This document shows positions 15,301 to 52,279 of a DNA stretch of 64,000 nt, in pieces. Source of the stretch: Cenococcum geophilum 1.58 (taxonomy: Eukaryota; Ascomycota; Dothideomycetes; Gloniales; Gloniaceae). Numbering within the stretch: position 1 is the stretch's first letter; each line of letters begins with the position of its first letter. The stretch is taken from the NCBI GenBank assembly GCA_001692895.1, contig KV748207.1, positions 1,550,001-1,614,000 on the forward strand, in the 5' to 3' direction. Made by a program: the position numbers and the translations under genes. The notes under the pieces were generated by a model. That model made no database searches. It was not told where the DNA came from and was given only the letters and a program-made list of their open reading frames with translations.

Positions 15301-15525
15301 AGGCATATTACTATTTAAGGCAAATTATGGATATAAGCTAAGAATATTGTTATTACTATAATAAGTAAAGAAGATAAGTAGCATAGCTAAAGAAAGAATA
15401 AAGATATTAATAAATCTTTATATAGACCTTATAGAATTAGTAAAGAAAGTATAGAAAAGAATAAAAAAGTACTATAATGCTAAGAGATTTAAGGGACCAG
15501 ATCTTAAGGAGGGAGATAAAGTATA
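12345..15525 (+). pseudogene. G2 pol: protease, reverse transcriptase, RNase H and integrase, RIP-mutated
   Basis: Aspartic protease: LIDSGVIRNY at about 12640-12675. Reverse transcriptase: LRLCINYRQLN near 13310, DLRQAYYQI near 13430 and the catalytic box read as VYFNNIIIYL near 13610, where the family has Y-L-D-D; both aspartates have become asparagine. RNase H and connection follow to about 14400. Integrase: DFIIKLLKL near 14870, LDRDLRF near 15070 and QTDGQTERLNQ near 15160-15195 mark the D, D and E positions. The gene is cut at 15525 by the 20-kb transposon and resumes at 35649 with its chromodomain tail. These enzymes copy the RNA to cDNA and insert it. Confidence 0.88.
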
Positions 15526-15539
15526 CATTGGCAAAATAT
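15526..15539 (+). repeat. Left terminal inverted repeat of the Plavaka-type element
   Basis: CATTGGCAAAATAT, preceded by target TA. The partner is at 35635-35648 with two mismatches. Confidence 0.8.
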
Positions 15540-15641
15540 GGTACCCTACCAATGGCCTTAATAGTTAGTGGTTGACGCAATTGGCGCGCAGTTAAGGGCA
15601 TTTAGCAACTNNACCGACTAGCCTATGTCGTGTTTTTTTAA

Positions 15642-15706
15642 TACGTAGCCTGCGCGTAGCTTACGCGCAACCTACGCGCAACCTACGCGCAACCTACACG
15701 TAACCT
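15642..15706 (+). repeat. Left subterminal short repeats
   Basis: About five units close to CCTACGCGCAA follow each other 120-180 bases inside the left end. Such subterminal repeats are typical transposase binding sites in CACTA/Plavaka-like elements. The right end has its own different subterminal repeats (35230-35590), both containing CAATT-GCG or ACGCGTAATTG-like words. They are less RIP-mutated than their surroundings. Confidence 0.6.
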
Positions 15707-16439
15707 GTAACCACAATTGTATTTAGAGCCATCCACCTCTTTTATACTAACAGTATATTTTAGATAATAAACAAAGGCTACTTTAAAGCTATTTATAAGG
15801 CTAGTAAGGTAAATTGTATACACTTCTTTATATAATCTATTATATTGTTTTAAACAATTTAATATAATATCCTAACTATTTTATAATATATTCTAAAAGC
15901 ATAAGACCTTTCCTACTCTCCCTATAACAATAATATACTATAAATATTTAGCTTTGCTAATATAGCATATATATATAGCCAAAAAGTAGCTACTAAGAGT
16001 AGCAGATATAGGCCGAAAGAAAGGTAGATTAAGAGCTAGTATATATAATAAAGAAGCCGCAGTTATCCTATAGGAGAGTATAGAAAGTCCTATACCTAAT
16101 CTCCTACTAAAAACTCTACTGGCTCCTTTATACTAGAGTCCAGAGCATATATTATAAACTTTATATACTACTCCTTATTCTTAATTAAATTTAATATTAC
16201 TTTTCTATTACTATACTAGCTATAGCTATCCTCTATAAGGCTATAGTACTGCTTAAATTATGCAAATAACTTATTAGATTTAAACCTTTCCGGCCTAGGC
16301 TTACCGGTTCCTATATTTAGGACAAAGTAGTACACTAGGGCGGAGGATATATATTCTACTAAATCTAACAAACTTAGCTAGTTCTAAAAGTTAAATTAGC
16401 AAATATTATAGTAGTAGTAGGGCCCTAGATTTTCTAGCT

Positions 16440-16575
16440 TACTTTAGGGCTCTCCCTTTAAGACGGACTTAGCGGACTAGTCTAGCCTACTCTAGAGCTC
16501 TCTATTTGGAATAGACTTAGTAAACTAGTCTAGCCTACTCTAGAGCTCTCCCTTTAAGACAAACTTAGTAGATTA
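16440..16575. repeat. About 60-bp direct repeats inside the DUF6532-like gene
   Basis: The block CTAGTCTAGCCTACTCTAGAGCTCTC recurs with about 60-bp spacing (two and a half copies). On the minus strand it codes a short repeated basic motif around GRALEQARL. Confidence 0.65.
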
Positions 16576-17765
16576 GATGGTATAGCCCGGCTTACTAATA
16601 AATAGCCTAAGTTAATAATCGCGTTAGTTTTATTATCGCTAAGGCTTATAAAGAACCTCTCTCTTATATTATCGCTTAGATCCGCTATAAGGTCGTTAAG
16701 GTTATCTTTATGCGGGTCCTTAATAATTTCTATAGTTAATTAATCCGGCATTAGGCCTATAGCATATTTAATAACTATGGGCTAAAGCCGCAGCCAGATT
16801 CTAGATTGCCGTTTTCTAGACATCTGGTTCTAGCTGCCTAAAAGGTTAGCGTAGGCTTCTATAACGGGTTAGAGAATAATAATAGGTAGTAAAATACCGG
16901 ATATATACTAACCGCTAATAACAGTGCCATAAAAGTTGTCTATTCCCTTAGACCTAGTTCTATACTCCCTAATTATATAATATATTACTATTAAAACGAA
17001 AGCAATAGTGTTGCCGGTAAGCTTTTTAAACATATTATAAGAGTAGGGTAATTGGGCAAGGCCGTTTCTTCCTCTACTATAAAATATACCAGCTATACTA
17101 GCAACTATCGCGTCGGAACGGAAGCGGTTATTACTTAGCTATTAACTCTTATTAGCATTTTACTAAATAGCACGGGTAAAATACCTTTATATAATCCAGC
17201 GTAATAAAATTATAATTAGTTAGTAGTTCCACAATTAGTTCGGGCGCGTTATTAAACCCTAGCCTATATACCTCCCTTACAACTATATAAGCCTTTATAA
17301 TTACGTAGTTCCTAAAGTTCCCTATTACGTTAAATAGCTATATATAATATTAAGATTGTTAGTGGATAATTTAATACAATATTTCTAGTATATAAATACC
17401 TTATAAGCGGACACCGGGTCAGGAATACAATTAGCTTTTTTTTGCACTACTTTTAGCTACTTTAAAATAGCTTCTAACTATACCTTTTTCATTATATCCT
17501 TAATAAGGCCTAGAAAGCGGTCGAACTATAGGTTAATAAAATGCCCGTTATAAGTCCTAGAGTTAGTTACTAGCCTTACTAGTAAAATAGACCTACAAAG
17601 CGCAAATATAGGCTCATGTCTCTTAGGTGGGTTTTCTTTTATACGTCGCCGTTATAATATCTAGAGGTACTCTTCTCTTGCCCGTATCGCGGCAGTTAGG
17701 TCAAAATCGTCATAGTCTAACTCGTCCTCACTTTCCCTAGTGCTATCCAGGTCCCCTTTAAATCA
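16500..17765 (-). pseudogene. Possible DUF6532-like protein in the transposon, RIP-mutated
   Basis: On the minus strand one frame is readable from about 17765 down past 16600. It starts with an acidic stretch (SEDELDYDDFDLTAAIRARE), continues FDRFLGLIKDIMKKV near 17520, and reaches a block near 17030-16930 reading FKKLTGNTIAFVLIVIYYII followed by an arginine-rich segment. An alpha-helical core with A-F-V-x-T-x-I-x-x-x-x-x-E-W is, from memory, the signature of fungal DUF6532 proteins, often found with transposons; that match is weak. No catalytic motif is seen. Stops are of RIP type. Function unknown; it may be accessory to the transposon. Confidence 0.35.
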
Positions 17766-17880
17766 AACACTAGATTAGTATACTCTATATTAGAGGGAGG
17801 TCACTTATTTTGTAGACGAAGCTATATTAGGGTTCAGGCGAACACGGCTTACTAGGGAAAATATAAAGCCAAATATTAGT

Positions 17881-18600
17881 TATTTACGCGATAAGGTTCG
17901 GATTAGGCGCGTAGGAGAGTATTTTAAACTAGTACGCAATTATTTACGCGGTAAGGTATAGATTAGGCGTATAGAAAAGTATTTCAAACCAATACGCAAT
18001 TATTAAGAGCCGGAGGTATATTACGAAGATGCTGCTTTTTATAGCAGTGGGCGGTTAGATAGTAAAGAGAGTGTTCTATTTACTAGGGCTCGCTAAGTGC
18101 CAAATAGTAGAGGAGACTATTAAGTATTGCAGTTAGACTCCGGTTATACATAAAGGTATAACCTACCTTAACCAAAAGATTGGGACTTTGCGTCTTTAAC
18201 TAAGCTAGTTTTGCTGCCAGATTATTAACAGATTTAATAGATTTATTAATATTTAGTCGCTGTCGTTTTGTAGAAGAAGCAGGTATAGACTCACAGTCAC
18301 TATCCTCATTATTAGAGATTACCCTTTTTAGCCGGAGGCGGCCATATATATTCTATATATTATTAGCCAGCTTAATATATTATATATAACGTTAATAGGG
18401 TCTATTACATACCTGCTCCTCTCTATATTTAGATATAACTAGACCAGAGTCGCTATTCTTATCATTAGATATTACCCTTTTAAGCCGGAGGCGGTTATAT
18501 ATATTCTATACATTATCAGCCAGCTTAATATATTATATTCAATATTAACAGGGTCTATTACGTACCTACTCCTCTCCGCGCCCAGATATAACTAAACTAG
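17881..18600. repeat. Two sets of direct repeats: 60 bp x 2 and about 150 bp x 2
   Basis: 17881-17940 and 17941-18000 are tandem copies of a 60-base unit containing TATTTACGCG and AGTACGCAAT. 18300-18450 and 18452-18600 are copies of a unit containing ATTACCCTTTT, GCCGGAGGCGG and CTATTACGTACCT. Each pair differs mostly by transitions. They separate the DUF6532-like region from the larger unidentified gene. 18600-18850 shows nothing further that I can name. Confidence 0.75.
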
Positions 18601-18849
18601 AGTTATAATATTGCTTATTCTAGCTGGGTTCTACATACTTGTCCTAGCTAGGTTCTACGTACTTATTCTCCGTCAACGCGTTTTTCCTTCCGTTAGCTAG
18701 GACGTGGGCAACTCCTAGTAGTAGGCTAGGTAGAGACGTAAGGTTAATTATACTAGTTATCCTCATTTCCTTATTCTATATTAACTTAAAGTAGGGTTCT
18801 TGCTACTAGTTTAAGTGTTTAATAACGCGTTTTTATATTTACCTACTAT

Positions 18850-21040
18850 AGTAACACTTTTATATTTGCCTAGTTAGCAGAAGGTATAACTTATAGCTAA
18901 AATGGGTTACCTTACGGCTGTTTTTATAATGTCTAGGGCGTATATAGATTAACAACTTAAAAGAATATATACTGGTATGGTATATATTGGACTAATAGCA
19001 GTATTAGTAGGAGTATTATTGCTATAGTGCTTACAAATAACTTAAATAGGGGTGCATTTATTATAATTAGCTGCTAGTTCTAACCGGTTACAGTTAAGCC
19101 GTAACCGCGACCTATTAACTCGCATTAAGTTAGTAGTTAAGAAAACATTATTGTATAGTTAAAGATTGTCTAATACTATTTACTATTATACGCGAAACTA
19201 TTTTATTCTATTAGCATATCCCTTAGCAGATACGGTATACGTATATAAAAGGTTAAACGTTAATCCCGGCAATAAAAGCAGTAGGCTAGTAAGGCTTATG
19301 TCTAAATTTAATAGGGAGGTACCTTATTAAACCACTTTACCCACCTAGGGCGCTGGCTTTTAGATCCTATACCTTATTCCAGTCCACTTATACTAGGTTT
19401 AACACCTGTTTCGCGCTTAAAGCGAAGCTTATCCACCTTATCTATATAGCTTACTAGTATAGATAATACTAGGGTAGGCATAGGCGGTATATAGGACAGC
19501 AATCACACTTCTACACAGTTATATCGCTATATTCTATACCCTTATGCAACACCTAGTATTTCTACCGTAAACATCTAACGTCATTCTTCCGCGTTGTTAA
19601 CCCCACCAGCCTATAGTAAGCCCAACTTATCCCCTACATATATATCGTAATAGCAATTAAATTTAGCAAAATAGTAAGGAAAGCGCAAGCATAGATATAA
19701 GGATTGGGTGTTAGATACTAAGAGCGAGCCAGGGACGGTGTTAATATATATTACCCTAACGAGTTTACTAAAAAGAACGGGTACAAACCTTAGGCTTTAT
19801 TATCTAATCCCCTTAGGCGTTTTAAGAATGCCAGATAAGTTATAAGAATATCTTAGGTTACATTATTCTAAGACTCCCTCGCCTAATAGTATACCGAGGG
19901 GCTCTATTAAGCCGTCTACCTTTATATATGGTAATCTATTAAACTAGCAAGCATTCCGGATAAAGCAGTGGCTTTAAGGCGCATAATCCATGCTGCGGTT
20001 ATAGTTGCCTTCGCCTTTTCTATTGCGGGTTAAGGCGTAGAGTAAGGGCTCTTTTTTAACTAGGAGAGGTTTTTTAGGACAACTATAGGTTAAGTATCGC
20101 CTTAGTATTAACCCGTTTACTAGTTCTACCTATTCTTATATATATAGAGTGCGAGTTATCTAGTAAAGGCAAGGGTGCGGAAATAAAGGGTAAGTAATTG
20201 TATCATTCTTAGCTGGTAGCGCAGACTGTAAATATAAGTTAGTAACACTGGCTTAACTTTAAGCAGTAACCTACTTGTTTTTCTTTATTCTATTATAAAT
20301 AAAAACCTATCCATTTCTTATAGAAATATATCCTTAACCACACTACGCCATTTCTCTTCGTTTATAAGCTAAATTTGTCCTCTAGCTATCTTATCGCCAA
20401 TATAGTAGTAAAGCGTTTCGCTTTTAGGGTTAAAGTTAATATCCTGGCCTAGCATATCTACAAATATATTAAAGCTTAGATCATTAACGTGTATATCTAG
20501 AGCGTCATTCTTACTAGTCACTAGCTTTCGGGTTAGGATAATTATTGGCTCTTTATTAGCTACCCGCCGGATTAATATTATTATTATTCCATATAACCTT
20601 AGTGTTCCCTCCTACCTTATTACCTTTAGTATGCCAGCTAGTGAATAATACGCGATGGCGGAGTGTAGGAGTACTAGGTTGCCTATTATAATTTACCTAA
20701 TAAGAGCCGTTTTGTTTATTCAACGCGTCGCGTTATAGCTATAGCGCTAGGCAAGCTATTTAATATATTTAGTATATAGGTTCTTGGGTAAACCTAAAAA
20801 CACAGATAGGAATTCGTTGGAGATTTCGTTTAATATTTGCCGTATTTATGCCTTGCTTATAAGGGAGCGTAGTAGCTATCTAAGGAGCCCACGCGTCAAC
20901 ATTTTAATTTCAATATTATAGTAGATCGTATTATATTATTCGTTCGTAAGCCCTAGATCTCGCTTAAGAGTGTCTTTAGTGTTATAGCTTAGGTCTGTTA
21001 TTAGTACCATAATTCCAGAAGCGTTGGGGGAGGTGCGGTA
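18850..21040 (-). pseudogene. Large unidentified protein of the Plavaka-type element, RIP-mutated
   Basis: A coherent minus-strand frame starts near 21010 (IMVLITDLSYNTKDTLKRDL) and can be followed for more than 250 codons with only RIP-type stops. It includes LDIHVNDLSFNIFVDMLGQD near 20500 and INEEKWRSVVKDIF near 20340. After one apparent frame shift near 20100 it continues YALTRNRKGEGNYNRSMDYA (near 20020), then LRFVPVLFSKLVRVIYIN near 19760 and KLRFKRETGVKPSISGLE near 19410. The length, roughly 650-700 residues, and the low stop density show a real gene. I do not recognise a family: there is no clear zinc finger, helicase motif or membrane segment. A transposon accessory protein is the simplest guess from its position. 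Confidence 0.5.
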
Positions 21041-21257
21041 GGAAAGACGTCTTAATTACGCGCCAAGACCAATATACAGAATTGTATAGACAGGTATATT
21101 ATTTAGTTATTATATAAAACAATCGGTTAAATATCTTATAAGAAATAAATAAGCGTATTAGCGAACGCTTCTTCACCCGCCACACCACCCAGACTTACAA
21201 CCTCCTATCCCTTTCACGTCTCCGTCTATAAGCTCGATTTAGTACCCAGATTCGTTA
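21041..21257. other. Intergenic spacer with no visible gene
   Basis: This is the likely promoter region between the divergent minus-strand unidentified gene and the plus-strand ZNFX1-like gene. It includes a less RIP-mutated C-rich stretch at 21175-21230 (CACCCGCCACACCACCCAG). No coding frame or structured repeat seen. Confidence 0.4.
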
Positions 21258-21410
21258 ATACTTTTTTTTTATATATTTTTTTATATATTCATTATATTAT
21301 ACTACGTATAATAATGCGCATATAGCCTCTAGGCTATAGTGCTATAGTTCTATATATATAAATCCTTTCTAGGCAGCTTAATATATACTAGTAACTATAT
21401 TTGCCAATAC
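21258..21410 (-). repeat. Reversed copy of the 3' end of the 36301-37768 retroposon
   Basis: Read on the minus strand, this segment matches 37635-37765: CTAGTA...TTAAGCTGCCT, then a GATTTAT block, a hairpin around ATAGCCTAGAGGCTATAT, TACGTAGTATAATA, then an A-rich tail (seen here as a T-run at 21268-21285). It is therefore a 5'-truncated copy of the same polyadenylated repeat. A target duplication could not be fixed with confidence. Confidence 0.65.
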
Positions 21411-21439
21411 TTTAAGACACCTAGTTAGCCTATAACTAA

Positions 21440-22665
21440 TAGAGCCTAGTTAGCACAATTGGAGGTCCCGACCTTTACTAAAATACTTAATATCCCTAAT
21501 AAGGGCCAGAATATCATTAGCGAAAACGGAGATATTTTACTACAAGTCAATAAGATCTTAGGTCTATATAGCTTGACGGAGGAGTATCTAAGCTCTTAAT
21601 ACAATCTTTTAAGAGAAGACACAATTAAACCGTTAAGAGAAGTAGTAGGTCAAATTAGAGCAAACCCTTTTTAGTTTACCGGAATCTGGATATAGTAATA
21701 GAGTCGGTATATATAAACAGGTAAACATACCACAATTCCAAAGCAGTTATCCCCTAATATCTGCAAGGTCCATACCAGCTTAGTAATATTTTCACCTTAA
21801 GGGCTAGTAATCTACGTGGCGTTCTTACTTAGGAGAGTAGGGAAGATAATCCGTTAGGATTAGTCGAAAAGACTAGTCACCGGGTCTCTAGTTGCTTTAA
21901 CTCCCGAGACTAATAATTTTCGAACGAAATATATACTTATAATAGTGGCGGCGAGACCATTGGCCGCATTAGAACAGAATCCCCTAAAGGTTAACTTATT
22001 CTTTAAGACCTAAAGATATTAAAATTGACTTATCCGTATTATAGACAATAGTTAAGGAATAAACTAGATTTTACAAAGTCAGTTGCTATACTATATTAGC
22101 ATTACAAAAGCTAATAAGAGAGCCGTAAGTATATAATATTTTCTAAATAAGAAGATATCTAACTACTAATAGATTCCCGTTATTAGAACACCTTATTTAA
22201 GTTTAATAGAATATTAAAGCACTACAATACGTCATAAATAAGCCTTATACGGATCTTAGTTTAATTATAGCTATTAAGGATGCTTCCTTATTTAAGAATA
22301 TTCACATTCTTAAAGACTAGTCAGATATAATTACTATAGGGCTTAACAAATCTCAAGCTACTATACTGAAACGAGTTCTTATAAAGCGTCTTATAATAAT
22401 CTAAAGACCTCCAAGCACTAGAAAAACGTAGCTTTAAAGGCGTTACTCAGCAATATAACAATAGGAGATCCCTCTGTTATTGTCACATGTTATATAAACT
22501 ATGCGCTAGACTAGTTCTTTAGATATATTGCTTAAAGTAATATATACTTTATAAAATTTCCTAGTACTTCTAACCGTTTTAATACTATCGCTTATACGGA
22601 TAGACGATATTACACTGCATTAGGCGCCAGGGCCATAGGAGTAAGAAGAAGAGGAAGCGTTAGGG
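21440..22665 (+). pseudogene. ZNFX1-like (UPF1-type SF1) helicase, N-terminal half, RIP-mutated and truncated
   Basis: The plus-strand frame shows the features of ZNFX1 in order. LTEEYLSSQYNLLREDTIKP (about 21575-21635) corresponds to the conserved L-L-R-E-D-x-x-x-P-L-R-E motif. SKRLVTGSLVALTPETNNF (near 21870-21925) corresponds to K-R-L-x-x-G-S-L-V-x-L-S-x-D-N-F. After a frame shift, LNKSQATILKRVLIKRLIII is followed by RPPSTRKT (22340-22430), which is the Walker A site G-P-P-G-T-G-K-T with glycines changed by G-to-A RIP. IVTCYINYALDQFF (near 22480-22525) is motif Ia/Ib. One stop inside a motif was read as glutamine. ZNFX1 proteins bind RNA and act in RNA silencing and antiviral surveillance in several eukaryotes. 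The rest of the helicase core, and any NFX1 zinc fingers, are missing: the gene runs into a minisatellite at 22680. Strong family call, dead copy. Confidence 0.8.
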
Positions 22666-22734
22666 CTCCCTCTTTTTATATCTTATATTTTATTTTTTTA
22701 TATTATCTTATATTATCCTACCATTATCCTGCCA

Positions 22735-23240
22735 TTGTATTATATTATCCCATATTATCCCATATTATCCTGCCATTATATTACATTATCCTACCATTAT
22801 GTTACATTATCCTGCCATTATATCACATTATCCTACTATTATGTCACATTATCCTGCCATTATGTCACATTATCCTGCCATTATATCATATTGTCCTATT
22901 ATCGCCCTGCCATTATATTATATTATCCTAATATTATCCTACCATTGTCCTGCCATTGTGTTATATTGTCCTATCATTATCCTGCCATTATGTCACATTA
23001 TCCTACCATTATATCACATTATCCTACCATTGTGTCACATTATCCTACCATTATATTATATTATCCTATCATCGCCCTACTATTATGTTATATTATCCTG
23101 ACATTATCCTACCATTATCCTACCATTATATTATATTATCCTGTCATTATCCTACCATTATATTATATTGTCCTATTATTATCCTGCCATTATATTATAT
23201 TGTCCTATTATTATCTCATATTATCCTACTATTATCTCAG
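22735..23240 (+). repeat. 21-bp minisatellite (about 22-24 units)
   Basis: Units close to CCTGCCATTATATTACATTAT follow in tandem. Because 21 is a multiple of three and the unit lacks stops, three overlapping open frames of 100-192 residues appear; these are artefacts of the repeat. It begins right where the ZNFX1-like gene breaks off. The CpA dinucleotides are largely intact, so this array escaped RIP or formed later. Confidence 0.9.
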
Positions 23241-24290
23241 TACTACTATATACTTTTTACTATTTACTAAGATTATAGTTATAGGTATTTATCGGCCAGG
23301 ATCCGGGCAGTAACTCTTAGCAGTAATTTTACTACCTAAATCTCTTATAGATCAATCAATTGGCGTAGAGCCGTTATATCGTAGTAAAGCCATATCTAAG
23401 CAATCTATATCGTAATCCTTAGCATAGTATTGCACGTAGAAATATTCAATCGTTAGATTTAGGAAGGTATTTATATTTTAATCAAATTCATAAGACTATA
23501 ACTAAGGGCCTTTACAGCGCAGTGGCATGGTAAGTTCTACAATCGCTTTAGTTTAGGGTTGCTTAGTTACTATAGGAAAGTTGTAATACTTAGCGTGGTG
23601 TTAAACTTAAGGTGCCTTGCTACTGTAGTGGCAGAGATATAGTAGATTAACTGCTTACTAAAATATAGCGCCCCCGTTACTGTAGTAGCCACTACAGTAA
23701 CAGAGATACCCTATATTTATAAATTTAGATTCTATATACGGTATAGCTTACAAATTTAACGCGCTTACCGATTTAGAGGAGCTTTCAAATTAGAAAGTCG
23801 CTAGATTAACCGAACGATCGCGTCAGAATCAGATTTAAGCTTTAGCTCGGATATATTCTATAGCCTTTAGATTCAATCTAAAGTCACAACTAAACGTTCC
23901 CTAAGATTCAATACAGGGATCTCTCCCTAAGGATCTAGTTTAATCGTAAGGTTTAGGAAGGGGTTATAATTTAGTTAAATTTATAAGATTACATTCTAAA
24001 GTCCTCATGGCGTAGTAGTATAGTACGTTCTACCTCTTACTATAATTTAGAGCTAGCCTAACATAATTAAAACTCAACGTAGAAGAGCTGATATGCTTAG
24101 TATATAGTGCTAAGATTTCGTTAAATATATAACTTTGGGCGTTATGGGACACGTATAAAAATACGAGCTTAATTTAGAGCCTTACTAACGCCTAATTTAA
24201 TAGAAAACGACCTTCTTTTTTAATATTTTTAATATTTTTAATACGCGATAAGTAGGAATTAAACCCGCCACGCCTAGGAGTTAAATACAC
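23241..24290. repeat. Non-coding stretch with a roughly 500-bp-spaced direct duplication
   Basis: 23440-23560 and 23935-24045 are related: both contain GGTTTAGGAAGG or TAGATTTAGGAAGG, a shared AATT-TATAAGA block and end GTAGTTCTAC-like. 23600-23720 holds an imperfect inverted word around CTACTGTAGTGG and CCACTACAGTAA. No coding frame was readable. Confidence 0.45.
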
Positions 24291-24302
24291 AACATCCAAT
24301 TA

Positions 24303-24560
24303 CTTAATCTGGCTAGGAGGCTCGGCGGCAATACAATAGGGCTTAATAATATAATAAGGCTTGACGGCGATATAATAAGACTCGGCAATATAATAAGACT
24401 TAACAATATAATAAGGCTTGGCAACGTAATGAGGCTTAGCGACGTAATAAGACTTAACAATATAATAAGGCTCGGCAACGTAATAAGGCTCAGCGGCAAT
24501 GTAATAAAACTCAACAATATAATAAGTCTTAGTAATGTAATAAGGCTTAGGGCCGGGCAA
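24303..24560 (-). repeat. 18-bp minisatellite downstream of the SNF2-like gene
   Basis: About 13 units close to CTTAACAATATAATAAGG, a few of them 21 bp. The period is a multiple of three, giving two artificial minus-strand open frames of 78 and 86 residues. It may encode the repeated C-terminal tail of the SNF2-like protein, or lie just beyond it. Confidence 0.8.
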
Positions 24561-24564
24561 TAAG

Positions 24565-27500
24565 GGGAAGATTTAAGGTTACTTAGTTACTAATACCTAA
24601 CAGCGAAATCCAACAGTATAGTACTGCTATTAAGGTATTTTAATGCGGGTAGGTTATATAAAGGTTTTGTCCGTAATATGTCTAACATATCCCAAAAGTC
24701 TGCCTTTTGCTTATCTTTAAGGTCAAATTTCTAGCCTATAATAAATTAAATATTATAGTCAGTAAGAGCACGACAAATAACAGTATATTTTGCCCTGTTA
24801 TTTTTAGAACCGTTAAACACAAAGTAGTAGGTAGTCCATTAACTTATATCTATTAGTGCCGGCTAATAAAGTGCCTTTAAAACGTACCAATATCAATAAT
24901 AGCCCTTTTATTTTATAGCATAACAAGCTTAATAGCAACGGGGTTTCGGTCCTTATAATTAAGCATATTTATCTAGCGGAGCTAGGTTTACCAATTATTC
25001 CAGTCAGCATTATATTATAGGTTAATTTAATATCTTACACCAATGGAAAAAGGTAGAAGGCAGATTAAATAAAATAATCAGGGTACGCTTTTCTTCGCCG
25101 TTAGGGATTTTATATAGACGTCATATAGCGTACAGGTAGGAGCTGGTAGTCATTAAGACGTCGTGGGCAGTAGTAAAAGTTTTATATAGGATAGTAAGAT
25201 CTTAAAAACCACTACTAATGGTTCCCCCTCATAGCAGACAACTACGTATATACGCTATAACTATACAATCGGCAGACGAAAGCGGTAGTTATAAACGTTA
25301 GTTTATCTATTCTAATGCCGTCTTACTTTTTATAACAATTTAAGATATAAAGGGAGCTTTAGTTACGGGATAATCCTCTTACATACTAATTAGGCTTTTG
25401 GAATAATAAAGATGGTATATATATATAGTCTATCAGTAGAGAAAATATACCTTAATAGGAATTATTAATATATATTAGGAACGAGAGTTGGTAGGGTTAT
25501 AGGCTAGATTACTTAATAGGTGTTAAGGTAGTTAGTGGCCGGAGTAATATTAATCTAAATAAAATTTAAACTTTTTAAGGTTTAGTTAGTTATAAGGTAG
25601 TTAACACTAAGATAATATATTACAAAATATTAAACAGTTGTATATTGTCTATATATATATACATTATACTAAAACATACTCTTATTACAGGGGGTTACTG
25701 CTCCAACTGCACTAGCTACGCTATTTCCATTATATTATCATCAGCCTACTAAGTAGGTTGGGCTTTAAACACTTCGTAGAACTTATTAATCGTTATCCTT
25801 TTAGTTATTATACGCCTTACTAATATAACCATATTAATCGGGTTCCACTTATCCGTACTATACATTATTAACACAGTAACTACTAGCGCTGGCTATCTAG
25901 ATCTAGCAGCTCGGCCGAATACTTGCACCTCTATATCTACCATTATCGCCAGTTTAAGTAGATAAACTCTATGCATAGAAACCAAATTTAAACCCTCTCC
26001 TTTAACTCTTCGGTTAATAATAAAAAACTAAACCACGTTATTTTAGTAAAAACCGCCTATTAGAATACGAAACGCTTTATAAATATTCTTCTAGTCTTTT
26101 AGGGATATCCTAAACTCTATCTAGTAAACAGTTAAATATTTAAACTGGCCGAGCCTTTTATAGAAATACTATATTATATTATTAGTAACAGTTTACTACT
26201 AGTCTAATAGCTAACTTATAAGGCGTAATAGCGTATATACCGCTAGTTCGTAACTGCTAAACAGTAGTCTCTTATTAGGATTCCTTTTAAGTACTTTATT
26301 AACATATTTTATAATTCCATTTAGTTTCCCAGAGTTAATAATCGTGCTTTAATTCTTCTAAAGTAGATTCTTATCCGAAGGTTCATCCCATTTTTCGCTA
26401 CGGAACTTATTAACTATCTACCTCGGCTTTATTCCAACTTTTATCTCATCCTTTTACCACGCATCCTACCACTTATCTCCTACCTTAGCTAGGCCTAGAA
26501 AGATAGCAAAAATTTTTAATAAGCGACCGGCTCCCTCTAGAAATTAATCCATATTAAAAACGGGTTCTTCTCCTTTTCTTCCTTTAGCTTTCCAGTATCT
26601 AAAAGCTTTATTTAGCTGTTTAAAAGCTTCTAAGGATACTTTACGCCAGAGCTTCTTAATATACGGTTTAAATATTAAATCGTTCGTTACATAGCAGTCT
26701 TAGTAAACGACCAGTGGTAGCTCATTAATTACCCTCCTATTAAACCATCGGTCTTCCCCTATCCTACGCATAATTAAAACCTTTACAATTAAAGAGGAGC
26801 ATTTTTTAAAGCCTATAATAACCTTATTTGGAAGAAAAGAGTAATTAGCTACTCCTAGCTTTTCATATTTAATTAACGCTTTAACATTGCAATTATTAAT
26901 TAATTTTGTATTTGGGGAATCCGTCCAATTAGGGGCCCTAAAAATTTCCAAGGCGGGAATTAGACTCGTAAAACCTTCGCTAGTTAGCGTACCAGAAGTA
27001 AACACTACTAAAGGTCAAGAGGTATAGTAGGTTATTTTACTATTACCGTCCTTATAAGACCGGCCCGGGCGTTAGAAGCAAGGAAATACTGCTTAATCAT
27101 TATACACTTATTTGGCAATTTTTATTAGATAACCTATCTCTAACCTGTCTATATAGAACTTATTAGTAAAAATCCCACTAATAATATAATAAGGACCACC
27201 GTCTCTATAGAAATTAAAAATGGTTTTATACTATTCCTAAGCGGTCTAGGTTATTGCCTAAATTTATAAGGTCGTAATTATAAGATATAAAGCCAATCTT
27301 GGGTCCATTTTCCACCAAACCACTTCGCCTTCTCCTTTATATTTTATAGGTTCAAGAATATCCCTATCTTTATCTATAAAATTATACTTCTTTATACTAG
27401 ACCTAATAAAAGCCATATAGCGCACGCGGACTTATAGTTTACCTCCAAAAATAAAATTATTTAGTTCTAAGGTCTTAAACCATAATTTAACGTCTTTAAC

Positions 27501-29570
27501 CGCTTAGGGCAGTAGATTCTATCTAGTAATATATATAGTTGGTCCTACTAGCCGGTTAAGAAATTTTCTAGCAATACTTCCCTTAATATAACAGCACTGT
27601 AGCATACCATCTATTTAACTTAGGCATTAGGCGTTAGGCAGCTGCGGGTGTTTATCTATACTAGGGGTAAGGTAAAGACTTTCATCTCTACCTTTTTAAT
27701 TTTTCCAATTAAGCCAGTCGAGGTTAATCTTGGTTATTAACACGCCGGTATACTAAATTAAAAGCATTTAAAGTATCTTACCTAAACCCATTATATCCGC
27801 AAGAAAGGTCCTACCTAGGGTTATATAATTAAGAAGAGTATAGGTAACACTAAGCAGCTAATATATCCACATAGCTTTACCCTTTTTTATACCATATAAG
27901 TAAAAGGTTACGTTTTAAAGAGTATTACAAATAGTTAATAGAAATAAGAGGAACTATAGCGCCTTTACCTATAATATTAGGTTAATATATACTTCTCGCA
28001 CGTCCTCTAGGTAATCAACTTCCTAATTAACCTCCTTAATTTTATCCTTATACTCATCTTTTAGTTCCTTATTAGTCAAAATAGGGTTAATTAAGGCGTT
28101 AAAGTAGCGGCGCTCCTATATGCGGTTAAAATTAATTTCCCCAATATAAATTAGGTTAGGGTTATTATTTATATCCTTAAATAATATATCAATAAACATT
28201 TCGCGATTAGACTTTAGCCATTTATCACACTATCCTTTTATTTCATCCCATGGCATTATCTTAAATATTTACACTTTATTTAGATCTACGCCTTTTAAGA
28301 GCTCCAATTCATCTAGTAGGGGCTAGTCTTTACTACTATAGGTCCAGCTATAAGCAGTTTTAATTATAGCCAGCTGTATAGCTAATAATATATTAGTAGG
28401 TATAGATGGCGTGGACTTTAGGGTTAACGTAGGCTTTGGATTTAACTGCTTAGGTATAGGTAGCGTAGACTCTAGGGTTAACTGCTTATAACTACTTCAA
28501 CCCAGGGCAGGTATATCTATTCTTCTCCTAGTCAGCACTAGTCGTACAATATTAGGGTCAGAGTTAGACTTAAAATCACCCTCATTAAATCTTATGCCTG
28601 TAAACGTACGTTAGACAACTCTATACAATATTATACAATTTTATAAATTATAAAGTCTTTTACACTTTATAATCTAATTAGGATCTTTAACTCCAATCAT
28701 AATTATATTAAGTCCGGCCTTCTTTATAGAAAGCACTATAAATGCCAGGTTTATATAGTTAAGAATTAGTATACTAGTAGTCAGATCTACTATAGTCTAG
28801 CTATCCCTATATTTATCCGCCAAGAAGTTTTTACTTATCGCGGCCTACAGCTTATTATATCCACAGTAATATACATTAATTTTCTCTGGAGAATCGGACA
28901 ATAGATACTTATACTTAGTTTTTAATGCAAATCTATATAGAATAGGGGCCCTAGTAAATAGCGTTTTATCTAGGTAACTGTACACAGCAAAGCTCATTTT
29001 ATAGAATGGTATAGGTGTGGTATTTAGCTATTATAGGGCTTTAATAGACAGATTACTAAGCACCTAGAGAGCCTCGGAGGTTGCCCTTAATCTAAATAAG
29101 TTAACAAACTGCTCTCTAGAAGATAAGGCGCCACGCTTTTAAATAGCATTAGTTATCGTAACCTCTACACCTCTACGTCTATTAGTCGTTATATATCGCT
29201 ATATAGATTTTTTGGCGGCAATAGCAAAAGCTTTAAACTCTAATAGCAGATCGGATCTCTTAAATATATACCCATACTTAGTGTCAAGAAGGTTAAAGAC
29301 TATACGCTTAACTCTATTTTGCACGGGTCCAGACATTAGCAACCTACCGCTAGACGCTTTATTAATTTCACTAGCACAGTATTAGAGGATTTCGCTATAT
29401 GTTTTTTCGTTAATTATAAGTCCTTACTACAGCTTTGGACCACTTATTTACGATAAGTTCTTATTAGTCGTAGTAGTTAAGTACTAACTAGATTCTGGAT
29501 ATAGCGCCGCTATTATAGTTAGGGACCCTATATATTTATAAGTGGGTAAAAGCTTAATATAGAATAGTAT
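24565..29570 (-). pseudogene. Very long SNF2-family helicase-like protein carried by the transposon, RIP-mutated
   Basis: One minus-strand gene can be followed from about 29570 to 24565, some 1,600 codons, mostly in frame with RIP-type stops. N-terminal region: NRVKRIVFNLLDTKYGY near 29310 and YSYLDKTLFTRAPILYRFAL near 28950, no known domain. Helicase motif I reads FLADIMGLGK at about 27775-27805 (family: L-A-D-E-M-G-L-G-K-T). A 101-residue open piece at 26700-27005 holds FTSGTLTSEGF, the motif III-like turn. The C-terminal helicase lobe reads RLLFSSYELAVYTLL near 26290, GLNLVSMHRVYLL near 26010 and QVFGRAARSR near 25910, i.e. motifs V and VI. A tail region (DFWDMLDILRTKP near 24690) has no known domain. 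SNF2 ATPases remodel chromatin or act in DNA repair and methylation. Which subgroup this is I cannot tell. Confidence 0.75.
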
Positions 29571-29941
29571 AGAGTAACTTATAAAGACAGTAGAGCGGAT
29601 AATATATTAAATAATTAGCAATAATATAATAAGATAATCCTAACAGTTATAATAAGAAGGTGTGCTAATAGTATTAACTTAAAACAATAGTAGATACTAA
29701 TAAGAGTAATCTAAGAGTAATATAAGAAATAGAACGGAATGCGAGTCTTAATGTGAGAAGTAGGATAAGATATAAGCTTTAATGTGGGCAGTAAAATAAA
29801 ATGTAAGACTTAGAGTAAGAAACGGAACAAAAGGTACGTAGCAAGACAAGATATAAGATTTGCGCTGCTAACTAAGTAAATAACAATAAGAGAGCTAATA
29901 ATTCTATTCTTTATATTATAACTAGTTAGTAAAGTAGCTCT
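29571..29941. other. AT-rich spacer upstream of the SNF2-like gene
   Basis: No coding frame seen. It contains short AAGANNTAAGA-type runs at 29740-29850 (ATGTGAGAAGTAGGATAAGA and relatives) and is the likely promoter area of the minus-strand SNF2-like gene. Confidence 0.35.
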
Positions 29942-30293
29942 AGAGAGGTAGGGAAACAAGTTTAAGACAATCTAAGATATTAAAAAATGTCTAAGATTGT
30001 ACAAAAAAGTAAAATACAATATGGCATTTTATTCCGCAAGTATAAGGTAAGGCAAAATGCATAGCAGAAAGAGGTAGGGGAATAATCTAAGACATTATAA
30101 AAGGTCTAAGATTGTACAAAAAAAAGTAAAATACAATATAGTATTTTATCCCACAAGCGTAAGATAAGGTAAAGTACATAGTAGAGAGAAATAGGGGGAT
30201 AATCTAAAACATTATAAAAAGTCTAAGATTGTACGAAATAAAGTAAAATATAATATAGTATTTTATCCTACAAGTGTAAGATAAGGCTTTAGG
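29942..30293. repeat. Tandem repeat, three copies of about 115 bp
   Basis: Each copy contains GAGGTAGGG, TCTAAGACATTATAAAA, GTCTAAGATTGTAC, AAAGTAAAATACAATAT and a TAAGATAAGG end. Copies start near 29942, 30068 and 30190. Inside each, GTATTTTA follows an AAAATAC word, giving a potential hairpin around the ATAC-AATATAGTAT centre. It sits between the divergent SNF2-like (minus) and unidentified plus-strand genes. Confidence 0.8.
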
Positions 30294-30843
30294 ATACCCT
30301 TTCACCTAAAATATAACCTATTTTTAAGCTATATTACTAATAAAGCAACTTTTTTTTAGGTAAGCTGTTACGTCTACTACATAGGCAACCTAAAACTAGT
30401 ATCCTAGATCCCACTCATAGCTACTACGCCTCATATCAAAGATATTCGCTAGACTTATTTATATATAGGTCCTGTAGTCCGAATTATATATTAAGCTATC
30501 TATAACACAGCTATTATTACTCTAGCCCTATAATACCGTACTCTTATTTATACGCCTTTTTCTTCTATTTCCTACCATTATCCGCTTAATCTTTTAAACT
30601 TCCATAGCCGCCTAAACCAACACCACAGCCTCTTTATCTTCAAAAACACAACTACGTCAAGCTTAGCTCAGCCTCAATTTCTCTTCAAAAACACGGCTAC
30701 GTCAAGCTTGCCTCGGCCTTAATTTCTCCAAATATACACTGCCTAGAAATATATCCCGCCTTACACAACTACTATAAGCTCTACCTATAATATAGCGTCT
30801 AGTACCCTAGCGCAGAGCGGGCTCTCTTAAAAGCCGCATTATA

Positions 30844-31490
30844 ATGCCTTCTAGAGACCAGACACCTAAAGCTTCTTTAGCCGCTATAAATAAGGGAGAT
30901 ACCAATATATAGATCAACGGTGGCATACCGGGTGGAGATAGCCCTAATCTTCGCGAGCTAGGGTAGGATATTAAGGTCAAGCTAGCCAATCTACAGACTA
31001 ACCCAAATAACCCGTTCTTTTCTACTAAATTATTTAAAGAGCTCTAACTATATTTTAGCTTTCCGCACCCTAGTAGTATATAGGCTCATACTAATATATC
31101 TATTTAACAGAAAACCGGAGGTATTAAAAGGAATTCTAGAAATGAACTTTCGAAAGCCGTTAAAGACAAGTAGTTAGCCTATAAGACACGGGCTTTCTAT
31201 TTAGTTACTTTACGGGCTTTAAATCATCTATATTATTGCCAATACCCATTATCTAGCCTAACCCTTTAGCGTTACCCTAATAACAAATATAAGACTTCCG
31301 GGCGGCAGCTTAAGTTAGACATTAGTTAGAACTCTATATACCTAAGACCGGATATTATAGTTCTAAGTACTAACTTATTTAGTTATCTTAACTTAACTAG
31401 CACTACCCTTAATCCTCCCTTTTTTCTTACTACGGCTTATATAGAAACAACGGAATTATAGGTCTAGATAGCTAACATCGTCGGGCTCTA
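30844..31490 (+). pseudogene. Unidentified plus-strand gene upstream of the Plavaka transposase
   Basis: From ATG 30844 a frame runs about 215 codons to a stop near 31490, broken only by RIP-type stops. It starts MPSRDQTPKASLAAINKGDT, continues DSPNLRELG, DIKVKLANLQTNPNNPFFST and later KTRAFYLVTLRALNHLYYCQ and IYLRPDIIVLSTNLFSYLNL. The opposite-strand open frame at 30807-30989 is a shadow. I do not recognise the family; there is no clear DNA-binding or catalytic motif. It lies about 360 bases before the transposase in the same direction, so it may be a transposon accessory protein or an upstream exon region. 31500-31850 contains a repeated coiled-coil-like word (CTTAAGTCCTTAAACTCGGTG, twice) of unclear strand. 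Confidence 0.45.
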
Positions 31491-31849
31491 TAACATTAGT
31501 GGTAAATAATATCTTCGCCGTAGCTATAGTCCTATAGCCATCGCCTAAGAATACTATATATTATTATTTAGACGGATAAAGGTTTTTTAGGTACTATTAA
31601 GTCTTTAGTTTACAGTTCGGCTGCTTTAGACTCTTTTAAGTCCTTAAACTTAGTATTAAGCTCGGTGTTAAGCTAGTCACACTTACACTTTAGTATCTAG
31701 TTTGGTTGCCTTAGACTCTTAAGTCCTTAAACTCGGTGTCAAGCTAGTTATACTTATGCTTTAGCATAACTAGTTCTAGCAAGAAAATAAGAGGTATACT
31801 CTTAGCAGCTATAAAGCCAAGCCACTTAGATTAAATACCAGTAATTAAC

Positions 31850-34800
31850 CGTTAGTACTATAATACGCACTCTTTACGCCTAGAAATAATACCACATTGT
31901 TTAATATATAATTAGCGACAATACAGCGAAGCTATCTATGGTGTTCTTATACCCCTAAAAGTTATAGCGGCCTTTACTAACACCTACGGTACTATAAAAG
32001 GCGGCTACCTAGCCACTAACACGTCTATAAAAAAACACGCGAAGAGAGATACAACACTCGCACGTTTATTGCGGCCCAACTACTTACAATTTGCGATTAA
32101 TTCCACCACTCTAACTAGTTAGATAACGCGTAATTATAACTAGATAGTATAAACACGGATACTAACAAGTACGCTTTAGTGGCGGTAGAATATAAGCAGA
32201 ATACCCACCCGGTGCCTCTATGTAGTATACTACATCAGAAAAGCGTCCTATTGTCATTATTATTACTTAAAGTAGAGACATTTAAAGCAACTAAGAATAT
32301 AAAGGCAGGTAAACCAATTTCGTATAAGACCGATAATAATGTATAGTAAGTTAACTAGACAATTTTAGATATTACCATATAATAACACGACAATAGCCAA
32401 AGTATACCATATAATCCTTTTTATTTAGAGTTTAATTACACCTTTTTAATATAGCTGCACTACATTCGCTACATAAAGGGAGACGTTAACACACTGCTTA
32501 AAGACACCCGCCTTAGCCCACTTTATAGCCTACTTAGCTTCCAATCTACAAATTAATAGGAGGAACTAATTACCGCTATTTTATTTAGCATATAAAACGA
32601 ACAATAGCTCCAATTAGAGTGTAAAGTAGAATTAAATATTAAAGGCTCTAAGCAGAGGAAATACTATATTCTTTACTAGGATATTATAAATATAATTACC
32701 TTTCTAATTGGCTATTAACCCTTTAAAGATGCACTAGCATATACACCAAAGAAACTCTATAATGCTAATAACCACCAAGTCTATAATAAGCTATACAGTA
32801 GTAACTAGTAGTAGGAGACATAAGGCAAGGTTCCTAGCGGTGCTATAGTAGTTCCTATACTTATAGCAGTTAATAAAACCCAGCTAACAATACACCATAG
32901 CAACAAATCGGCCTAGCCGGTATATTTTACCATTAGTAATCTTAACCAACAAGTTCAACGCCAATAGATATCCCCCGCAAATATTCTTATCGGTTTTATG
33001 CCAGTTATTAAAGAAAAGGATAATAATATAAAAAGTAAAGCATATTATAAGGCGATAAAAACTATACTTAAACATAAGTCCTGCTTTAGTATTCTAACGC
33101 TATATTCTATAAACTAAAACATAATAGTAATTAAGCATCTTATAGAAAGCGGCATAAACCTTTAATATACAGATAATTTTATACGACGATGTTATCCAAT
33201 TATATATGGAATAATGGCAGACTATAAAGAACAAGTGCTGCTCATAGGTATCAAAAGCCAACAGCACTGCACTATATACTAGGTCCCCCCTTTAAAGCGT
33301 AAGAACTTAACTAAGAAACAATACCTGCTACGCACCTATAAGGAGACAAGAAGACAGATTAAACGCCAGCAACTAGAGAACATTCTTCCATCCTTAGACA
33401 ACTAGGTACACCCAGTAGAATATTTCACATGGCACTATCGCCTATTTAACATCCATAAGGGCATAATAGTAGATATTCTATATCAGCTTCTAAAGGGTAT
33501 TATCATACGACTTATTAAATAGGTACGGAAACTAGTAAGCGATGTCGTCCAGCCAAAAAAAAAGAGAAGAGGGACAAAGATAACCACAACAAATATATCT
33601 ACGGAGGCTTAGCTTAATTAGCATTTTAGATAAATCCCAGCTTTTACGGGGCTAAAACGGTTTAATAATCTATCATTTAGTAAAATTACTTAATAAACAG
33701 GTAATAAACAAAAAGCCATGGTTCGTCAACTTGTCGCTATGCTAGCCCCACTACTATCGTCTAGGGAACTATATGCTATACATTTTACAAGAGCCGTATA
33801 CAACTTCGTTATTATAGCTTAGTATCACACCTATAATAAGGAGACACTACAATATATGCACCACGCCCTATATCAAATTAATATGCTTAAAGGCGTATTT
33901 CAAAGTTTCCGTCCAAAGGCAAAGGATTCTAATACGGGCCATTTTAATATACTAAAATTCCATGCCCTCGTACATTTTAAGGAAAATATCCGCCTATACG
34001 GATGCGCAAATGGGTACTACACTAGCGTAAATAGCGAAGCTGGACACCATTACATTATTAAGGCGTTTTATAACTTAACAAATAAACGGGATTCGCTATC
34101 TTAAATCTGCTCTTACAATTTAAGACAGGTAGCAGTACTAGCAATAAAAGACAAAATAGCTTTTATAAATAGTAATTCTATACTATAGTCTTCCCAGCGT
34201 TTAGAGGTACAGATTACTTAACTAATATAGCATTTAGCAGTTATAAAGCTTTAGTAGCCTTTAGAAGATATAGATAGGGCAACAGATCTTGTCTAGAGGC
34301 GTCTTAGGTTAAAGACATAGCTTCATATATCTTATATAGCAAACTACTGCGAAATCCTAGGGTTTCTAGATGGCATTATAGTATTTATCCAAGAGTGCAG
34401 GCGAAAACTACAAGGCGAACGTGCCTAGAACTCCAATATGGACCAGAAAGAGAAGGATCCTTTATAGGTTAAGCGCCTGCTTATTAAAATACATCCATCT
34501 ATCCGCTATTAAAAACGAGACGGAAAAAATGCAACCGACCTTAAGGCCCAAATTAGTAAGGTAGTACGTTACACACTAGATTAGCAATATTCTAACTAGT
34601 AGAGGCGTAATTACGTATAGGTCTAAGAGTATATGGATAATAACAACCGTATTAGAAAGGGCCGCACACCGTTAGGTAGAAGACTTATAGGCCAGCTTTA
34701 GCTAATTATTACTATTCTAGATATTAAAAGGTTAGATAAATACGGTGTATATATACAGTATACTAAAGCTATAGTAGAGCTGCTTTAGCCATTAAATTAT

Positions 34801-35085
34801 AGACTGCCGCATCCAACACATAGCATGGTTAAGGTGAAAAGGTAGCCGCGCTCGAGCGTAAATACTAGGCAAGTACTTAGAGGTGGTTGCTTTTATTCAA
34901 TGCTATCTATTCTACAAAGCGCGCATATTATTCCAGCCGCTACTTCTTATCCAGATTTATACTATATCAATAATTATATTAATTGGGACTAATACAATAC
35001 TCTATACTCGGACAACTTTCTTAAAGAAGGAACCCGTATCGCGTTATTATATAGAAGCCAGGACAAATAACAAAAGCAGCTAAGC
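31850..35085 (+). pseudogene. Plavaka-family transposase, RIP-mutated
   Basis: About 1,070 codons in one direction. Landmarks: NKTQLTIHHSNKSAWPVYF (32870-32930), ANILIGFMPVIKEKDN (near 32985), YTDNFIRRCYPIIYGIMADY (near 33170-33235), and the still-open stretch 33856-34104 with NILKFHALVHFKENIRLYGC, VNSEAGHHYIIKAFY and NLTNKR. The C-terminal part has RKGRTPLGRRLIGQLQL (near 34655) and YYINNYINWDQYNTLYS (near 34960-35010). These match, in order, the pattern I know from Plavaka transposases (W-P-V-Y-x-T-x-G-N, C-x-D-G-x-x-R-x-x-x-P-x-x-A-x-Y-x-A-D-x-x-E-Q, F-H-x-x-x-H-F-x-x-x-I-R, G-Q-L-x-x-V, D-W-D-Q-Y). Such enzymes cut and paste the element at its inverted repeats. The gene ends about 560 bases before the right inverted repeat. 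RIP stops, for example within 33590-33700, make it inactive. Confidence 0.88.
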
Positions 35086-35089
35086 TAGC

Positions 35090-35600
35090 ATAGAACCTAT
35101 ATAAGACTATATAGGACTATATAAGATTATATAAGATTATATAAAATTATATAAGATTATATAAAATTATTTTAATCCTAATATATATTATAAGCTAGCA
35201 TACTACAGGCTAAGAAAATAGTAAAAATTCATTTACGCAATTGGCATATAACTTTAAAATAATATATTATATTACCTCAATTGCATATTAAAGAATGTAT
35301 AGTTGGCTTTTAAAGTTATTAAGTTAGTCAACTACGTGTTATTTAAATTTTAAGTTGGTCAATTACATATTAAGGAATATACAGTTAGCTTTTAAAGTTG
35401 TTAAGTAGGTCAACTGCGTATTATTTAACTTTTAAATATATCAAGTTAGTTAATTGCGTATTAAGTTAATTAAGTTGCATATCAAGTTGGTTAATTATGT
35501 ATTAAGTTAGTTAAGTTGCATATCAAGTTAGTCAATTACGTGTCAAGTTGGTCAATTGCGTGTCAAGTTAGTCAAATTGCATGTCAATTACGCGAAACGC
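35090..35600. repeat. Right subterminal repeats of the Plavaka-type element
   Basis: 35090-35165 is a run of ACTATATAAG / ATTATATAAG units (about eight). 35230-35590 holds at least twelve short units of the type AAGTTGGTCAATTGCGTGT, getting closer together towards the end. Together with the left subterminal repeats they would be binding sites for the transposase. The last 50 bases before the inverted repeat contain CGCGAAACGCG. Confidence 0.7.
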
Positions 35601-35634
35601 GAAAAACAAAGTCTACTTAAATCTCATCCTGCGA

Positions 35635-35648
35635 ATATTTTCCTAATG
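35635..35648 (-). repeat. Right terminal inverted repeat of the Plavaka-type element
   Basis: On the minus strand CATTAGGAAAATAT, matching the left end at 12 of 14 positions, followed by target TA at 35649-35650. Confidence 0.8.
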
Positions 35649-36290
35649 TAGCTACTATATAAATTTTTTAAAAGTTAATAACTAAGTAAGAAGTTAGACT
35701 ATGTTAGACTAGGACCTTTTAAAATTACGTAAAGAAATTTTACTAGTTATATTTAAGTTAAACCTACTAGCTAAAATAAAGATCTACCTTATATAGTACA
35801 TTGTAATACTAGAGCCAGTATATAGGAATATTAAGCCACTAGTTTATAAAGTAGACATATATAGAGGACAGGAAGAAGATAAATAGTAAGTTTTAAAGAT
35901 TATTAGTTATAAGGACATTAACAATAAAATATAGTATAAGGTTAAGTAGATAGGCTATAATAAAACTACCTAGGAGCTACTAGAAAATTTAAAGAACGCT
36001 ATAAGAAAGGTATAGGAGTATTAGAAGAAATTAGGTTAGGCAGTATTAATAAAAAAGGATCGCTAAAGAATAAGTCACCTAAGGGGGACCTAAGAAGAGC
36101 AGTTGCCGAACTACTTAGATCTATTTTCTTCTCTATTAGGGGAGAATCCGTTCTTTTATCGCCAAGTTCCTATAAACCTTATTCTATAAGTTTCTACTCC
36201 TTAGAATAAACCTTTTTACGTACCTTCTTAAGATAAAGCAACTGAGTAGATGCCGCGATATGAGTATTTAGGGCCTTCTATTCCGCATTA
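35649..36290 (+). pseudogene. G2 pol C-terminus with chromodomain, RIP-mutated
   Basis: It resumes exactly where 15525 stopped, as the uninterrupted G1 copy (41850 onward) shows. The frame at about 35905-36030 reads KIISYKDINN, IQYKVKQIGYNKTTQELLEN: the chromodomain pattern (I-x-x-x-r, Y-x-V-K-W-x-G-Y, T-W-E-P-x-x-N-L) with tryptophans turned into stops. Chromodomains steer chromovirus integration to heterochromatin. The end of the block is interrupted at 36300 by the retroposon. Confidence 0.7.
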
Positions 36291-52165: not shown

Positions 52166-52279
52166 GGCTGCCGTTTTGGTGCCTCTCTAGGTAGGGAGGA
52201 TGTAAGGAAGGAAGGGTAAAAAATAAGGTGGCTACCTATGTGTAGAGGCTATTGGGAATATAGCGGGGACCCGATAGTA

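Follow-up and report, generated by a model that had tools for sequence, protein, structure and literature searches.

A 20-kb Plavaka transposon of Cenococcum geophilum that appears to carry genes of its own beside captured pieces of two host genes

The question raised by this locus of the ascomycete Cenococcum geophilum 1.58 is whether some 20 kb of sequence moved as a single transposon and, if so, which of the genes inside belong to the transposon and which were taken from the host. The locus lies in a stretch of 64,000 nucleotides (contig KV748207.1 of assembly GCA_001692895.1, forward-strand positions 1,550,001 to 1,614,000), here called the window, and all positions are window coordinates unless a contig is named; features given without a strand have none assigned. 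The element occupies 15526-35648, boundaries that are exact and give a length of 20,123 bp. With a probability of about 0.82, we read it as a large Plavaka transposon that has its own transposase, an SNF2-like gene and a probable DUF6532 gene, together with captured pieces of the host genes ZNFX1 and DBP5, and that spread in a burst. The genome searched was the source genome (177.2 Mb in 162 contigs), to which all genome-wide counts refer.

Inverted repeats of 14 bp lie at 15526-15539 (plus strand; across copies mostly YATYGGCAAAATAT) and 35635-35648 (minus strand; across copies mostly ATATTTTCCYRATR) and agree at 12 of 14 bases in the window copy, as the first-pass annotation of this DNA had noted. 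That match alone is weak, given that 17 of the 676,396 registers around both ends equal it, the true pair included. As queries against the genome we used the outermost 301 bases at either end of the proposed element, and we scored the best 40 of 614 (left) and the best 40 of 573 (right) first-look candidates. Among these scored matches, the two ends could be matched up for at least 19 copies; 17 of the 19 span 19,809 to 20,320 bp, and two longer ones measure 25.9 and 41.0 kb. The ends are proven because the same pair recurs across the 19 copies. The window copy is flanked by TA on both sides (15524-15525 and 35649-35650), and the 2-bp flanks are identical in 18 of the 19 paired copies (12 TA, 2 AA and one each of GA, CA, TC and TT), the remaining copy having the unequal flanks TA and CA. 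The target duplication is 2 bp, with TA preferred but not fixed; an obligatory TA target was rejected, given that 6 of the 18 identical duplications are other dinucleotides. An uninterrupted copy of the target sequence lies within the window at 41553-42152 (plus strand), where the flanks of the element, joined without it, match as a single stretch (86% over 601 bp). The empty site from which a TA target had been derived was thus recovered, while TA as a fixed target was not.

Inside the ends are subterminal repeats, with an 11-bp unit on the left (15649-15706) and units of about 20, 41 and 82 bp on the right (35277-35587). The motif CAATTRYG has three copies within the right 400 bp, two inverted copies within the left 400 bp and a single copy in the 18-kb interior. 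First-look candidates for the ends (573 to 614) far exceeded those for interior regions (60 to 72), and a larger set of elements sharing related ends may therefore exist. At two loci (L037, C13:2055470, and L038, C49:31149; positions 1499-1799 in each), the right 300 bp of the element are present at 83 to 89% identity, and the interior upstream is common to both loci and differs from that of the family described here, which we call family A. None of the 19 paired copies, drawn from the best 40 of the 573 to 614 end candidates, was a transposase-only element of 4 to 6 kb of the kind that the first-pass annotation had set against its own proposal, although some loci combine related ends with another interior.

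Seven of the 19 copies, that of the window included, were aligned over their whole length and are colinear, with pairwise identities of 0.897 to 0.918. Each pair differs at 1,611 to 2,059 positions over about 20 kb, of which only 1 to 11 are not transitions. Transitions make up at least 99.3% of the differences among the seven copies, and 4,383 of the 4,404 variable columns in their alignment are transition-only. The share of cells in which C was changed is 58% in CA and 32% in CG context, compared with 4 to 5% in CC and CT. This mutation pattern is repeat-induced point mutation (RIP) as in filamentous ascomycetes; RIP is known in Pezizomycotina (PMC12730594). Given that the copies are colinear and differ almost only by transitions, the interior, cargo included, spread as one unit in a recent burst, and RIP struck the copies afterward. 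Family-A copies are found in about 55 genomic places. Region searches, in each of which about the best 40 candidates were scored (SNF2 of 60, transposase of 72, DBP5 of 65 and DUF6532 of 71), placed a listed transposase region 7.0 to 8.0 kb from the SNF2 region in 30 of the 40 SNF2-region places; four others have it at 9.6 to 19.7 kb, and six have no listed one within 40 kb. The first-pass proposal of a large, cargo-bearing Plavaka element is upheld by these listed spacings and by the seven colinear copies, in which the same gene set recurs between the same ends, the check that it had suggested.

The Plavaka transposase had been placed near the right end, and it is there: an open reading frame of about 1,049 codons runs in one frame over 31921-35067 (plus strand), from a probable N-terminus rich in Cys and His. 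In the raw window, the Plavaka transposase domain PF18759 matches 32632-33504 with E 5.1e-45 (154.5 bits against a curated cut-off of 26.3), and the protein composite of seven copies matches with E 1.2e-62. The order D (32872), D (33220), C(2)C (33268), H(3)H (33961) and E (34036) was seen by eye on the multi-copy composite. A second family (family B) has a transposase with the identical motif order, except that the first H of H(3)H is Y, and the raw-window transposase aligns with it in one frame at 44% identity (copy L083, C30:1712501-1717500). That family-B copy is little mutated, and about 1 kb of repetitive sequence separates its transposase from a ZNFX1 piece of its own. Domain and motifs together assign the family-A protein to Plavaka, within the CMC superfamily. 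Stops common to the seven copies number 17 in 983 codons in the transposase frame, compared with 41 to 80 in the other five frames. When 33 copies were aligned over the last 1.8 kb, no all-copy stop was left in the transposase frame over 34231-35067, and two remained at 34219 and 34228; many of the stops common to seven copies are therefore RIP hits. Since RIP makes only transitions, the keeping of a frame separates working genes from dead ones.

The ZNFX1-type stretch at 21141-22535 (plus strand) has no frame with clearly fewer shared stops (26 to 29 of about 410). The ZNFX1-type domain reported by the first-pass annotation is present in the raw window (PF25396, E 1.2e-14). Its donor is a host gene at C16:2570963, which has no stops in the matched stretch and stays open through GPPGTGKT and beyond over the 1.8 kb read. 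Compared with this donor, all seven whole copies have one inserted base, a 2-bp deletion and a 13-bp deletion; the piece retains an intron and breaks off shortly past helicase motif Ia. A working ZNFX1 gene was rejected, given that the stretch is truncated and frameshifted and that the host holds an intact donor. What had been taken for an accessory helicase is, to judge from these indels and this truncation, a captured pseudogene fragment of the host gene. In 54 of the 55 family-A places, a ZNFX1 query yields two separate matches, one split being caused by a 6-kb insertion, and the sole unsplit place (C2:2915701; 52% identity, ten stops) lies beside SNF2 and DBP5 matches.

The same query aligns through in 12 places, namely, the host gene, one family-A place, nine family-B places and one other. 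The nine lie 2.8 to 3.8 kb behind a same-strand family-B Plavaka transposase, and the one other place has no listed Plavaka within 15 kb. In the one family-B copy read (L083), the ZNFX1 piece is about 860 bp long, shares 93% identity with the donor, differs from that of family A in its ends and indels and stops before helicase motif I. Only one transversion relative to the donor is common to families A and B (of 11 in A and 10 in B), and no indel is, so that two separate captures would be the simpler account. A single early capture common to both families is conceivable as well, given that they also share 14 RIP-type and 6 reverse transitions relative to the donor. ZNFX1-type genes are tied to RNA silencing, and the first-pass annotation had proposed the ZNFX1 and SNF2 helicases as possible accessories that help the element to live with silencing. 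Both gene types do occur in the element, and Plavaka families bearing TET have been proposed to escape silencing (PMC12730594). The broken state of the family-A piece, its intact host donor and the end of the family-B piece ahead of motif I all speak against such a role for ZNFX1, however, and we regard the joint proposal as very improbable indeed.

A second captured piece, which the first-pass annotation did not name, lies about 740 bp upstream of the transposase in the same direction. This piece (30472-31179, plus strand) derives from the host gene DBP5 and runs from the 5' flank, with about 270 bp from upstream of the donor start codon, through exon 1 and intron 1 into exon 2; its position suggests that a promoter may have been captured. 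The donor at C1:6339308 has no stops in the matched stretch, and the piece matches Dbp5 in the PDB with E 3.7e-6. In all seven copies, 11 bp are deleted after the first start codon, 45 bp are inserted and one further base is lost. A DBP5 query gives 57 matches genome-wide, one being the host gene and the rest not checked singly. RIP load varies by copy, and the DBP5 stretch is stop-free in the element copies at C4:3838237, C33:1053982, C49:865458 and C9:1388070.

Transversions relative to the donors are near 1% (11 of 1,146 sites for ZNFX1 and 6 of 651 for DBP5), compared with 0.005 to 0.056% non-transitions between element copies, which makes the captures far older than the burst. Both pieces were already broken before the 20-kb unit spread. 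They were taken up as genomic DNA, introns kept, perhaps through gap repair or template switching, which have been proposed as capture routes for Pack-type elements. Repeats longer than about 400 bp are exposed to RIP (PMC6710886), and captured pieces above roughly that length should expose their donors to it. Yet, in the parts compared, no RIP scars were found in the donor genes. Host-side C-to-T differences fall in CA context in 1 of 15 cases (DBP5) and 4 of 16 (ZNFX1); counting CG as well as CA, the figures are 5 of 15 and 8 of 16, respectively. The dinucleotide indices of the donors are far from those of the element. Such an escape of the donors can be tested.

The SNF2-like gene at 25752-29513 (minus strand) is open in one frame for 1,254 codons, with motif I at 27774-27800 and motif VI at 25893-25925, and this interval measures exactly 3,762 bp in all seven whole copies. 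Shared stops number 26 in 1,268 codons in its frame, compared with 42 to 139 in the other five. On the composite, motif I (ADMMGLGKT) and motif V/VI were recognized by eye, and Helicase_C matched the multi-copy composite with E 1.4e-4 (22.5 bits, below the cut-off of 23.5), with no SNF2_N match; the nearest PDB chain is ERCC6 (E 0.055). The SNF2 helicase gene of the first-pass annotation thus stands as a frame-intact gene, while its family identity depends on motifs and the subthreshold Helicase_C match. Several observations weigh against the SNF2 assignment. Pfam run at E 0.1 on the raw window left the gene unmatched, only one of the seven raw copies gave any Pfam match, at E 0.19, and a profile of the seven raw copies matched no PDB entry at 0.5. 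NCBIfam gave no support, and the predicted fold of the window's own reading had a predicted local distance difference test score (pLDDT) of 33.

It would be possible for all of the cargo, the SNF2-like gene included, to be accidental passenger DNA gained by Pack-type capture alone and to play no part in transposition, and two of the five coding features are indeed captured host pieces. A 105-residue SNF2-like stretch searched against the genome has a whole, single-frame match in 51 places, and the other 9 of its 60 matches come in pieces from five places, of which four hold broken copies and one a fragment; this search found no separate host gene. The lack of a host counterpart in that search argues against mere passage, as does the frame kept over 1,254 codons, unlike that of the ZNFX1 piece, and we consider a cargo made up of passengers alone unlikely. 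Given that its frame is kept in all seven whole copies, the SNF2-like protein is instead a possible accessory of the element.

The remaining coding feature is a DUF6532 gene, found here and not named in the first-pass annotation, with a domain match at 16905-17156 (minus strand) and a probable extent of 16905-17760. The domain gave E 1.8e-4 in the raw window, below the cut-off, and 1.6e-7 on the composite, above it. The DUF6532 family has 76 places genome-wide, which were compared with the best 123 of 266 Plavaka candidates (110 places after 13 second halves of split matches were dropped). Thirty of the 76 places have the family-A layout. Another 14 lie 3 to 6 kb behind a same-strand Plavaka of a third family (family C), 13 of them at 4.4 to 4.6 kb, and five are otherwise placed; the chance of a random point lying so behind a listed Plavaka is about 0.001. 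Side by side, DUF6532 and Plavaka have also been listed among the domains of two Ganoderma genomes (PMC8955403). Because it also recurs behind another Plavaka family, the DUF6532 gene is probably the element's own and would encode an accessory protein of Plavaka elements. Against this, no Plavaka is listed within 30 kb of 27 of the 76 places, and one scan of the raw window put the domain below the Pfam cut-off while another put it slightly above. The recurrent pairing gives a functional lead for the domain as that of an accessory transposition protein.

The different strands and neighbors of these genes could also have arisen by nesting, in which a small Plavaka element would have received one or more other transposons bearing SNF2 or DUF6532 before being amplified as a nested whole. 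The cargo does lie on both strands, several tandem arrays are present, and DUF6532 lies on one side of the transposase in family A and on the other in family C. However, the listed SNF2- and DUF6532-region places (best 40 of 60 and of 71, the window aside) match at 90 to 93%, and 38 of the 40 SNF2-region places have a family-A transposase region or left end within 40 kb, so that there is no independently mobile source of the cargo among the listed matches. That DUF6532 travels with another Plavaka family points to common inheritance. We consider nesting quite improbable and favor a single cargo-bearing Plavaka transposon.

In the mechanism that we propose for this transposon, the DDE transposase encoded at the right end would act on the 14-bp ends and perhaps on the subterminal motif CAATTRYG as the likely substrate. 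The DUF6532 and SNF2-like proteins, if active in the element, would be likely helpers, the SNF2-like protein either working on chromatin, by opening silenced chromatin, or aiding transposition. The whole 20-kb unit would have been amplified recently, before RIP struck the copies. The captured pieces may themselves be functional, the DBP5 piece as a housekeeping promoter with a 5' intron and the ZNFX1 pieces by depressing their donor through antisense or small RNA or by drawing RIP onto it, so as to form an anti-silencing kit with SNF2. Selection for ZNFX1 pieces would fit the finding that two Plavaka families took the same gene, but we hold this functional reading to be rather unlikely.

Other features of the window were less informative. 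The stretch at 20321-20720 (minus strand) has 133 codons without a stop common to all seven copies; it had no Pfam match at 0.05 and one PDB match at E 0.57. A tandem-repeat array at 22698-23183 follows the ZNFX1 piece, and here the window copy is 149 to 348 bp longer than the six other whole copies. Another array, at 24326-24550, is matched in reverse at the end of the family-B stretch (L083). A tRNA near 24.3 kb was rejected, given that ARAGORN finds none within the window. Outside the element, 52232-53203 is a GC-richer stretch in AT-rich surroundings whose minus strand reads as repeated HEALHEAL-type peptides. The hallmark of Starships is a tyrosine-recombinase captain at one end. None was among the Pfam matches, in scans that did not cover every frame, and the inverted ends, 2-bp duplications and DDE transposase argue against a Starship. 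Likewise, no TET/JBP dioxygenase was matched in the frames scanned with Pfam, which were not every frame of all stretches.

The nearest described relative is PlavakaB of Agaricomycotina, which has the termini CATCA..TGATG and target duplications of 2 to 3 bp (PMC12730594, Kojima 2025); PlavakaA also yields 2-bp duplications, and Plavaka transposases have C(2)C and H(3-4)H between the second D and E (PMC12730594). Family A is like PlavakaB in these transposase motifs, in the 2-bp duplication, in the CATC start and in carrying extra genes, which in PlavakaB encode a TET/JBP dioxygenase (PMC12730594). Its termini in the least mutated copies are CATCG..CGATG, agreeing with those of PlavakaB (PMC12730594) at four of five bases, and it differs further in its CA-type RIP, its SNF2-like gene, its captured host pieces and the lack of TET in scanned frames. 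The word SNF2 is absent from the main text of PMC12730594. Given that the termini differ at the fifth base, we would file the element as Plavaka and not as PlavakaB. Plavaka has also been named in Rhizophagus and a protist by other papers. Among the titles and abstract openings listed in our searches of open PubMed Central papers, there was no report of a Plavaka element with SNF2, ZNFX1, DUF6532 or captured genes.

Helitrons are rolling-circle elements that, unlike family A, have neither inverted ends nor target duplications. Like family A, they capture host gene fragments in fungi (PMC6431247). En/Spm (CACTA) families of the red alga Chondrus, at 16 to 20 kb with four to five open reading frames, belong to the same CMC-type superfamily and size class and likewise have several genes, whereas their transposase lineage and host are different and captured host pieces go unmentioned in the passage that describes them (PMC6431247). 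The closest parallel to the capture is that of histone H3 in hAT elements of Pyrenophora (PMC3538342) and Pseudocercospora (PMC6710886), in which parts of a host gene were likewise multiplied between transposon ends; in Pseudocercospora, too, the copies were inactivated by RIP while the original survives (PMC6710886). The hAT elements captured a transcript (PMC3538342, PMC6710886), whereas the Plavaka element took up genomic DNA with introns, from two donors in one element, one of these donors having been hit by two Plavaka families. Family A has the features of Pack-type elements, with host fragments between terminal repeats, donors without stops in the matched stretch and fragments that spread with the element, the ZNFX1 piece lying in 55 family-A places. 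Capture by fungal hAT elements and Helitrons was already known; Pack-type capture of host genes by Plavaka in a RIP-active fungus appears to be new. A Plavaka family can thus pick up and multiply host DNA, and the locus offers a natural case with an intact donor per captured gene, dozens of RIP-struck copies and a datable burst. Collectively, our findings add the Plavaka lineage to the hAT elements and Helitrons known to capture host genes in fungi, with genomic in place of transcript DNA as the captured material.

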